Shown here one piece after another: positions 33,243-36,440 of a DNA stretch of 36,440 nucleotides; position 1 is the stretch's first letter, and the number at the start of each line of letters is the position of its first letter. The notes below the pieces were generated by a model, which searched no databases, had not been told where the DNA came from, and worked only from the letters and a program-made list of their open reading frames with translations. The stretch covers positions 1 through 36,440 of the forward strand of contig JADGPS010000031.1 in assembly GCA_017882285.1 (NCBI GenBank), written 5' to 3'. The position numbers were made by a program, and so were the translations under genes. This stretch comes from Paludibacter sp. GTDB taxonomy: Bacteria > Bacteroidota > Bacteroidia > Bacteroidales > Paludibacteraceae.

Positions 33243-33608
33243 AAAATAAATTGAAATAAAATATTATATCCGGGAATCCCCCAGCTCCCGCTCTGGATTG
33301 TATCGCGTGGGAAAAAGGAAAAAGGACTTGAGTAATGGTATTGCTATAATGGATTGCCACACGATAGAATTCGTGCGGCAGCGTTTGGGACCGTTGGTTC
33401 CGATTCTGTCAGCAGAGAAAGAAGACAGAGTTGGAACCTACCTACCGAAGGCAGGCTCTCTTATCCCGGTCAGAAACTCCAGCTCCCGCAGATTTGCAAT
33501 CTGAGCGAAAAGACAGGATAGAATGTCTTGGTTCACAATCCCGAGTCAGCCTTGGGAAACGGAATAATTGAAGAAGTTCATGTAAAAAACATTCAAATAC
33601 TACACAGT
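33243..33608. other. Gene-free stretch with decayed repeat
   Basis: After an AT-rich tail, 33270-33530 is more G/C-rich than the genes around it, with two CAGCTCCCGC copies (33283-33292 and 33480-33489). No gene is credible; it looks like an old repeat or remnant. The presumed leader of the next gene starts near 33560. Confidence 0.5.
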
Positions 33609-36440
33609 ATGAAAAAGAAAGATTTATTTTCTCATTTAATCAGTATCACTCTGTTTTTAATGCTATTTGTATCATTAAAAAGCTACGCATTAGATTACAC
33701 AATTACCTTTACCGGTACAGGAGCAAGCACAACGGTAGAGAGCGTAATCGTTCAAAATCTCACAAAAGGCACTACGGTAACCGTACCTGCCGGAAACGTT
33801 TTGAATTTGAATGATGGACCAAATGCTGTTGAACAGCTGAATGCAAATGATGAATTTATACGCATTTATCCCAACCTTGTAGAAGGAAAATCTATTGTAT
33901 CATTTTTTGCAAAGCAAGCTGGTAGCACCCAAATCAATGCCTTTAGCATAGACGGCAGAAAAATAGCCGGAATAACTGAAAATTTGCAAACAGGAAGTAA
34001 TTCGTTTCTACTTTCGTTGCCAACAGGTGCTTTTTCCATTCAGGTAGTAGGAAACGGATATACATATACGGCCAAAATGATAAATCAAACCGGTACAGCA
34101 AGAAAACCTGAAATAGCTTATATTGGTACTGTAAAACCGGCAACTTCCAATCCACAAAAAAGCAAAAGTTCCGCTCTCGGTACAACTACAATGACATACA
34201 CCACCGGTGACCAATTGCTTTATAAAGGGACTTCAGGCAATTACAGTACCATTATTACCGATGTGCCAAACGGAAGTAAAAGTATTAATTTTGTCTTTGT
34301 TGACTGTACTGATGCAGATGGGAACTATTATACTATTGTTACCATTGGTACTCAAACATGGATGGCTTCCAACCTGCGTGTTACCCATTACCGCAATGGA
34401 GAAAGCATTACCAACCTTACAGTGGATGCCGACTGGACTGGTGCCACTTCTGGTGCCTGGTGCGATCAGTTCAACTTGGCTGCCAATGGTATCAAATACG
34501 GACATCTCTACAACTGGTATGCCGCAAGCGATAGCCGCAATATTGCTCCTGTGGGCTGGCATGTAGCCACCGATGCCGAATGGACAACCCTTGAAAACTA
34601 CCTGGTAGCGAATGGATATAATTACGATGGCACTACCACCGGTAACAAAATAGCCAAATCCTTAGCTGCTACTACCGATTGGTATTACGATACAGGCACC
34701 GGTACTATCGGTAATGATTTAACAAAAAATAACACCTCTGGTATTACAGCTCTGCCGGGTGGTTACCGCAATTTCGATGGTACATTCTTCTACATTGGGA
34801 TCGGCGGTGACTGGTGGAGTTCTACCGAGTACTATCTCGACCTCGCCTGGTTCAGGGGCATGGACTACTACTACAGCAGCGTGAGCCAGTACTACCTCTT
34901 TAAGGTGAGTGGTTTCTCTGTGCGCTGCCTTATTGGTGATATTCCGGTTTTATCAACTACAACTGCTTCAACAATTACTTCCACTTCAGCAATTAGTGGA
35001 GGAAATGTAACAGCAGATGGAAATGCAACTGTAACAACCCGTGGAGTATGCTGGAATACAACCGGCAATCCAACAATTGCTGATAACAAAACAACTGATG
35101 GTAGCGGTAGCGGAACTTTTGTTTCTAACCTTTCCAATTTAGCAAGCGGAACCACTTATTATGTACGGGCGTATGCAACTAATAGTCTTGGTACAGGGTA
35201 TGGTTCTCAGGTAAGTTTTACAACTCCCGATATTGTACGACTTGTATCTGCATGTGGATCAATTACCCGTTCGTATGCTAAAGCTTCTCAAAATGTAAAA
35301 TCAAATACCCAAACAGATATAACAGCTCAAACAGATGTTTATTTGTCCAAAAATAGTTCACCGTCTTATCCAAAATTACCACAAACACTCATTGCTGCAA
35401 AAACATTGACTGTAACTGATCCAACGGTTGTTACATTACCTTATGGTACATCGCTTAATTTAGTTGATAATGTAATTGCAATTTATAATTCTGTTGGATT
35501 TGACATTGCTGGATATGGATTGAACTATAAGTTTGACCTGTTAGATGAAAGTGGAAATACAATTGTTTATATAACAGGTTCTACTGCTACTAATCAACAA
35601 CAGTTTATTCGGATAAATGATGCAGCAAGAGGTACTATTCAAGCTCCAGATGCAACTGCTGCACAGGGCACTACTCCGATTGTACGTGTAACAATGTATA
35701 ATCCTCAGAATCCTACTTGTTCTGTACTTATGTCATTTATTAAAATATATATGGCAGTTAAACCACTTCCAACTCCTGTTATTTTACCTTTTTCTTTTTC
35801 ATATGCAGTAGCTTCCTGTTCCGATGTAACCGGTGTGCTTACAACTCAGCAAATGTCACAAATTTATGTTGCGACAGGTTTAAGTATGACAGAATTCAAT
35901 CAATTATATATAATGTTGTATTCAGGTGAAGGAGCTGTTACACAAACTGCCAGCACATACCTGTTGAACTGGACTTTGACAGCAAACCAAATATGGACTA
36001 AGGTGATGGCTTCTGATCCTGCTACATTTACGGCTACAGCAGTTTATACCCCATCAGTTCCTACGCTATACCCAACGGTAACTGTTACGTTAACGCGCAG
36101 ATTTACTAAACCTGCTTCATTGAATATATCATCAACTATGAGTATTTTTTGGTATCCTGTTGCTCCTAATGTAACAAATACTCCTTCAACGAGTGCTAGT
36201 ACACCAATGCCTTGGAATTATGTAAAACATACCATTTATCTTCCAAGTACGGGTGAAACTAATAGTGCCTTAGCGGTTTTTCAGAATAACATTAATCAGG
36301 CATTCGTGCAAAATGCTAATATGAGCCTAAATGGGTTAACAAATTATGAGTACTATTTCATACCAAATACAGGAGCAGCAACTAATGGACTATATTTAAA
36401 TGATAATAGTCAACCAATTATGACTGTAAATGGTGTAACA
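33609..36440 (+). CDS. Secreted FISUMP-domain protein, cut by the right edge
   Basis: Open from the ATG at 33609 to the window end (944 codons, no stop). Order: signal peptide (1-27, LKSYA); residues 81-158 resemble a type IX secretion tail or Ig-like fold (FIRIYPNLVEGKSIVSF, SLPTGAFSIQVVG) although far from the C-terminus; FISUMP/C-type-lectin-like domain at 231-440 (VDCTDADGNYYTIVTIGTQ, TWMASNLRVTHY, GYRNFDGTF, GFSVRC); a fibronectin/Ig-like repeat at 445-535 (TRGVCWNTTGNPT, TYYVRAYATNSLGTGYG); then over 400 residues of unrecognised Ser/Thr-rich beta sequence. Residues 393-434 are dominated by Tyr, Ser, Asp, Leu and Phe with mostly NNC codons, matching diversity-generating retroelement target segments. 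Function is probably surface ligand binding. Confidence 0.85.
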   Translation, partial: MKKKDLFSHLISITLFLMLFVSLKSYALDYTITFTGTGASTTVESVIVQNLTKGTTVTVPAGNVLNLNDGPNAVEQLNANDEFIRIYPNLVEGKSIVSFFAKQAGSTQINAFSIDGRKIAGITENLQTGSNSFLLSLPTGAFSIQVVGNGYTYTAKMINQTGTARKPEIAYIGTVKPATSNPQKSKSSALGTTTMTYTTGDQLLYKGTSGNYSTIITDVPNGSKSINFVFVDCTDADGNYYTIVTIGTQTWMASNLRVTHYRNGESITNLTVDADWTGATSGAWCDQFNLAANGIKYGHLYNWYAASDSRNIAPVGWHVATDAEWTTLENYLVANGYNYDGTTTGNKIAKSLAATTDWYYDTGTGTIGNDLTKNNTSGITALPGGYRNFDGTFFYIGIGGDWWSSTEYYLDLAWFRGMDYYYSSVSQYYLFKVSGFSVRCLIGDIPVLSTTTASTITSTSAISGGNVTADGNATVTTRGVCWNTTGNPTIADNKTTDGSGSGTFVSNLSNLASGTTYYVRAYATNSLGTGYGSQVSFTTPDIVRLVSACGSITRSYAKASQNVKSNTQTDITAQTDVYLSKNSSPSYPKLPQTLIAAKTLTVTDPTVVTLPYGTSLNLVDNVIAIYNSVGFDIAGYGLNYKFDLLDESGNTIVYITGSTATNQQQFIRINDAARGTIQAPDATAAQGTTPIVRVTMYNPQNPTCSVLMSFIKIYMAVKPLPTPVILPFSFSYAVASCSDVTGVLTTQQMSQIYVATGLSMTEFNQLYIMLYSGEGAVTQTASTYLLNWTLTANQIWTKVMASDPATFTATAVYTPSVPTLYPTVTVTLTRRFTKPASLNISSTMSIFWYPVAPNVTNTPSTSASTPMPWNYVKHTIYLPSTGETNSALAVFQNNINQAFVQNANMSLNGLTNYEYYFIPNTGAATNGLYLNDNSQPIMTVNGVT
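34785..34910 (+). other. Candidate diversified segment (VR-like) of the FISUMP domain
   Basis: Of 42 codons, 24 end in C, including TAC (eight), AGC, GAC, CTC, TTC and GGC, all reachable from AAC by changing adenines only. Within it, WWSSTEY and AW are conserved family positions, while the intervening ones are the variable sites. No AAC or AAT codon remains. The template repeat and reverse transcriptase needed to prove diversification are not in the window. Confidence 0.45.

Follow-up and report, generated by a model that had tools for sequence, protein, structure and literature searches.

The gene that runs off the right end of a Paludibacter sp. contig raises the question as to whether a codon-biased segment in its interior was written by a retroelement, and whether the genome that carries it can still rewrite it. 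The window analysed here (36,440 nucleotides) is the whole of contig C14 in a draft assembly of 3.18 Mb, 143 contigs and 98.3% completeness. The gene lies on the forward strand, with an ATG at 33609 picked by eye and a reading frame that reaches the contig end without a stop; the features of the locus are as follows.

33424..33466, no strand assigned: dispersed repeat 5′ of the gene (pairwise alignment), of which a copy in inverted orientation immediately precedes the reverse transcriptase (RT) remnant on contig C70
33609..34337, + strand: N-terminal scaffold, start codon placed by eye, with a Por_Secre_tail-like region at 33864-34082
34338..34931, + strand: FISUMP / Fib_succ_major domain (PF09603, E=4.7e-39; TIGR02145)
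34758..34931, + strand: variable-repeat (VR)-like segment with an adenine-template signature (template comparison, codon counts)
34932..36440, + strand: post-VR continuation in the same reading frame (translation), 503 codons to the contig end

In a profile search the domain scores 135 bits against PF09603, for which the curated cut-off is 33.9, while the scaffold matches PF18962 and TIGR04183 weakly and below the curated cut-off of both; the Por_Secre_tail-like match, itself sub-cut-off, lies in the N-terminal part and not at the C-terminus. The initial annotation had described a FISUMP domain with a diversification-type codon pattern, and this pattern is real and extends slightly further than claimed. 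It had also placed the segment internally, with more than 500 residues after it, which is correct. The C-type-lectin-like fold that it ascribed to FISUMP domains stands weakly backed: the window domain perhaps has this fold, and a search of PDB sequences with its profile returned no match.

The codon pattern was scored at 25 aligned codons that encode Asn in either of two template repeats. At these positions the window VR is NNY in 25/25 cases and NNC in 21/25, while C-ending codons (among C- and T-ending) make up 9/20 at the remaining VR positions, 47/100 in the domain upstream of the VR, and 133/511 of the NNY codons in the gene outside the VR (Fisher p=6e-9). When 58-codon stretches are ranked by their content of C-ending codons, the four richest start at 34755-34764, which is the window VR. 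The window genome has 15 FISUMP matches, one of them (C44) below the cut-off, and the codon test took in 13, with the partial C41 and C44 left out. Four domains (C16, C91, C4 and C24) are without the signature, with NNC counts of 4/25, 1/25, 3/24 and 2/15 among them, and C115a has it weakly (7/25); the seven remaining paralogues have NNC at 14-18 of 25 positions.

Searches with the VR DNA matched 12 of 100 genomes and searches with the RT matched 45 of 100, and both converge on one contig of a genome of the same genus (G022:C7; CAIUTB010000007.1, uncultured Bacteroidales bacterium isolate AM-2014_bin-1918; identical at the RT). This contig carries a canonical diversity-generating retroelement (DGR) composed of a FISUMP target with a VR at its end, the accessory gene bAvd (PF22296, phrog_3206), a template rich in AAC and an RT (PF00078, phrog_1423), and its neighbours are phage-like genes, among them head-protease- and terminase-like ones. 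The G022 VR differs from its own template at 32/65 adenines and at 0/115 other positions. A FISUMP domain is present in six of 15 loci examined, G022 included, with 17-32 adenine mismatches and 0-3 others; for the five besides G022 the figures are 17-30 and 0-3, and the domain ends 2 residues before the stop codon. A scan of 46 loci for templates found an AAC-rich stretch in 32, many of them not FISUMP-type, and scored highest in G022 (207) and L114 (206).

A second genome of the genus, G030, has a template and an intact RT directly 5′ of a gene that we read by eye as mfd. A template repeat of this genome (L168:80-334, G030:C34) is without about 30 bases that are present in the VRs on G030:C77, and because it lies at the contig start the missing bases may be an assembly fault. 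Relatives of the G030 RT (E<=1e-20) occur in 29 of 358 family genomes, five of which are in the genus; the RT is nearly whole in G030 and G022 (69%), with G005 at 38%, G001 holding a part (34%) and G034 a bare tail. The last is a lone C-terminal tail of a DGR RT at a contig end (L203:1486-1695, G034:C182). Two pattern scans of viral contigs gave no match; used as queries against viral contigs, the RT picked out 14 loci (best 33% identity), the template peptide 4 (58%) and the window domain 9 (42%). RT relatives among phage and plasmid records (113 and 1799 records) are all below 60% identity, and the window domain was matched by one phage record. We also note a viral contig (IMGVR_UViG_3300023216_001569, L146:4586-6580) with three FISUMP domains in tandem.

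Compared with the G022 template, the window VR has mismatches at 36/64 adenines and at 22/114 other positions (p=6e-7; this and the other Fisher values assume independent bases and serve only as a guide). Seven of its paralogues are more sharply divided: C115c differs at 29/65 adenines and 4/115 other positions, C1 at 34/65 and 5/115, C115b at 33/65 and 7/115, C70 at 29/65 and 7/115, C48a at 39/65 and 9/115, C48b at 33/64 and 9/114, and C115x at 37/65 and 16/115. The bias is weak in C44 (30/59 and 28/109, p=0.001) and C115a (31/65 and 34/115, p=0.012), and there is none in the signature-free controls C16 (29/65 and 54/115) and C91 (31/65 and 63/115). Counting that of the window, eight FISUMP VRs of the window genome are clearly adenine-biased, and several of these are internal. 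Paralogue differences fall preferentially at template adenines, the reverse of the observation that the initial annotation had named as counting against its proposal of retroelement-driven diversification. As an account of how the pattern arose, that proposal is supported: the changes follow the adenines of templates from two congeners, and paralogues are scrambled at these positions.

None of the templates compared gives rise to the window VR through changes at adenines only, there being 22/114 other mismatches to G022 and 12/79 in the 3′ half to G030. The 5′ half differs from the G022 template at 12/22 adenines and 1/32 other positions, while the 3′ half differs from that of G030 at 25/45 and 12/79 and from that of G022 at 24/42 and 21/82. 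Since the two halves fit different templates, with G022 matching the 5′ half and G030 the better match to the 3′ half, the window VR's own template would be of a third, unseen type. We regard it as probable that the segment is a DGR-made FISUMP VR which reached an older scaffold as a cassette and is now stranded after its DGR was lost or broken.

The internal position bears on the second part of this reading. In all six FISUMP cassettes tested the VR ends 2-3 residues from the stop codon. An exact stem of at least 6 is absent from the 120 bases 3′ of the window VR, a weakly discriminating test: the same search finds stems in five of the six cassettes, none in L121 and none downstream of C48a or C48b, whose VRs are C-terminal, and four of the five cassette stems also arise in 19-21% of shuffles. 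Homologues of the scaffold occur in 29 of 48 genus genomes, that of the window included. Of 30 scaffold loci fetched, 17 have a scorable FISUMP VR, two of which (C14 and C1) are from the window genome, and 13 have none. In the 15 foreign loci with a scorable VR, NNC counts are low in 12 (1-8 of 20-22), some of which are internal, and intermediate in three (L208, L217 and L221, with 15, 13 and 10 of 22). Five of the 15 also reach p<0.05 in the adenine-bias test, three of them (L215, L228 and L229) with few NNC codons, so weak values of that test taken alone mean little.

Alignment with a C115 paralogue shows where the scaffold and the domain part company. DNA identity in 100-column blocks is 82-92% as far as 34252, 77% in the block to 34352 and 48-58% thereafter, apart from the block at 34741-34838, which reaches 70%; the drop thus falls near 34340. 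The window domain itself shares more with C115 domains 2 and 3 (124/203 and 132/203 identical) than with the C115 domain in the same place (89/202). The drop in homology at the domain start, together with the closer kinship to C115 domains at other positions, suggests that a FISUMP cassette was put into an older internal slot, a swap that we draw from one paralogue comparison.

A variant without a cassette swap, in which a DGR that tolerates internal targets rewrote the internal VR in place, is rather unlikely, although other VR-like domains are internal too, four in C115 (one weak) and one in G030 (17/47 adenine and 7/82 other mismatches), and a stem-loop is described as not strictly needed for BPP-1 retrohoming (PMC12875486). 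It sits poorly with the near-terminal VRs of all six FISUMP cassettes and with a loss of paralogue homology that sets in where the domain begins, about 400 bases upstream of the VR.

Two genes on contig C115 of the window genome (G000:C115) are observations in their own right. One (L086:10108-13980) encodes three tandem FISUMP domains followed by Big_5 and InlB-like repeats, with the adenine signature in the second and third domains and hardly in the first. The other (L086:5419-9954) has an internal FISUMP VR (C115x) and a terminal FGE-sulfatase domain (PF03781) with a final stretch that resembles, by eye, another kind of DGR-diversified C-terminus.

The initial annotation had proposed a search for a near-identical template copy and an RT, and neither was found in the 98%-complete draft beyond an RT remnant that bears a stop codon; such an absence, which it had named as the other observation against its proposal, holds as far as the draft reaches. 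The RT profile PF00078 has no match among the 143 contigs of the window genome (and matched in 3 of 14 control genomes), and DNA searches for a template, one using the VR and one the G022 template, gave VR-like copies and short matches (E 0.15-6.4 and 0.28-0.99). The bAvd profile PF22296 has no match in the window genome and likewise none in the 14 controls; PF05635, which is not Avd-specific, has five. The remnant, found by protein search, is an RT tail of 36 residues on C70 (36810-36917), interrupted by a TAG, and at 111 of 128 columns it is identical to the RT gene of G030 at its 3′ end. It adjoins the 3′ side of a FISUMP VR gene, which itself follows a gene that by eye we presume to be mfd. 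Current diversification of the window site by the window genome is not supported.

Three other candidates for DGR components were rejected. A C93 match to the RT (E=0.0032, two TAA codons) overlies a gene pair that by eye we presume to be a toxin-antitoxin system and was taken as chance. The PF05635 protein on C70 was discarded as an Avd candidate, its sole Pfam match being 23S_rRNA_IVP. C44 is not the missing template: it is not AAC-rich, it contains a stop and it has a 12-base gap relative to the G022 template, and it is therefore a VR fragment. It lies near a contig end (L085:12047-12230) as an orphan, with the rest of the domain absent and the stop internal.

An intact DGR might instead act on the window VR in trans, having been missed by assembly or binning, for example on a prophage. 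The congener DGR does lie among phage-like genes and the draft is in 143 contigs; phage-like sequence is of the kind that bins may drop. Remote VRs, moreover, are described in other systems (PMC4891356, PMC8144416). A live remote VR is nonetheless improbable, given that profile and protein searches found no RT and DNA searches no template, besides short matches at E 0.1-10, that the RT piece which is present is broken, and that the window VR is internal with many differences at positions other than adenines. A stranded VR remains the reading that we prefer.

Homogenisation among the paralogues was examined with six VRs (C1, C48a, C48b, C70, C115b and C115c; 15 pairs). Differences amount to 12-40% in the upstream domain, 7-14% at non-adenine VR columns and 48-66% at adenine columns. 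C1 and C70, for example, differ at 37%, 8% and 56% respectively, and such a strong contrast is typical of distant pairs; in the closest pair, C115b and C115c (12%, 10% and 61%), the contrast between upstream and non-adenine columns is nearly absent. The window differs from the six by 28-40% upstream, 21-23% at non-adenine columns and 52-73% at adenine columns, consistent with only mild homogenisation. Purifying selection could also keep the non-adenine columns alike, yet 47% of them differ between C16 and C91, which are without the signature. That no DGR was involved, and that positive selection or gene conversion between paralogues at surface-exposed residues combined with local codon bias to make the pattern, is very hard to credit and largely contradicted: the FISUMP variable positions do vary in paralogues whether or not these have the signature, and the paralogues look mosaic, but the variable codons keep C or T as third base where neighbouring codons mix, the differences sit at adenines of DNA copies that lie beside the RTs of relatives, and signature-free paralogues have no such bias.

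The adenine-restricted scrambling, the templates and RTs of congeners, the seven further VRs and the decayed RT end on C70 thus point to a VR written by a DGR. In the sequence of events that we envisage, the FISUMP domain encoded by the DGR template was of the G022/G030 type, and an RT would have copied this template and misread its adenines, turning AAC into NNC. By mutagenic retrohoming the mutagenised copy would then have been written over the VR in a FISUMP gene, and the diversified domain may later have been transferred, as a cassette, to an older scaffold gene in which the FISUMP position is internal. The lineage would subsequently have lost or broken its DGR, so that the window VR and its siblings would now be either frozen or reliant on a DGR elsewhere. 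The protein probably presents a face for ligand binding in which 20-odd residues were randomised. More tentatively, a DGR that was possibly phage-borne may have made randomised lectin-like cassettes which recombination then spread through many chromosomal genes for surface proteins, also at tandem and internal positions, giving the species a combinatorial binding repertoire that outlasts loss of the RT. Since eight adenine-biased VRs occur in a draft in which no DGR RT was found, the DGR footprint in bacterial surface proteins may exceed what RT counts show, and the window locus is a testable case of diversified domains spreading by recombination.

Fib_succ_major is already listed as a DGR target domain (PMC4159848, PMC8934634, PMC8143477), and in the available text of these sources it is the target in DGRs of the human microbiome and of Bacteroides uniformis phages, as in the window; a literature search pairing DGR with the name 'FISUMP' found no paper. 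The window differs from these systems, as far as they are described there, in that its genome yielded no RT or template, its VR is internal and it has several paralogous VRs. The G022 DGR (loci L084 and L113) is also close in kind, with a template that accounts for the 5′ half of the window VR, the 3′ half being closer to the G030 type. Roux et al. describe a near-universal modular DGR organisation in which the VR is typically C-terminal and tied to cis elements for retrohoming, and note that the approach of their large survey would miss remote targets (PMC8144416). Adenine-scrambled VRs without an RT, as seen here, are described for nanoarchaeal VR fragments and for remnant target genes in isolates of Treponema denticola, and have been interpreted as fossils or as remote targets (PMC4372165, PMC4891356). 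In those accounts, as available, the hosts are others, and the window case differs in consisting of FISUMP domains that are both tandem and internal, with a break in homology between scaffold and domain.
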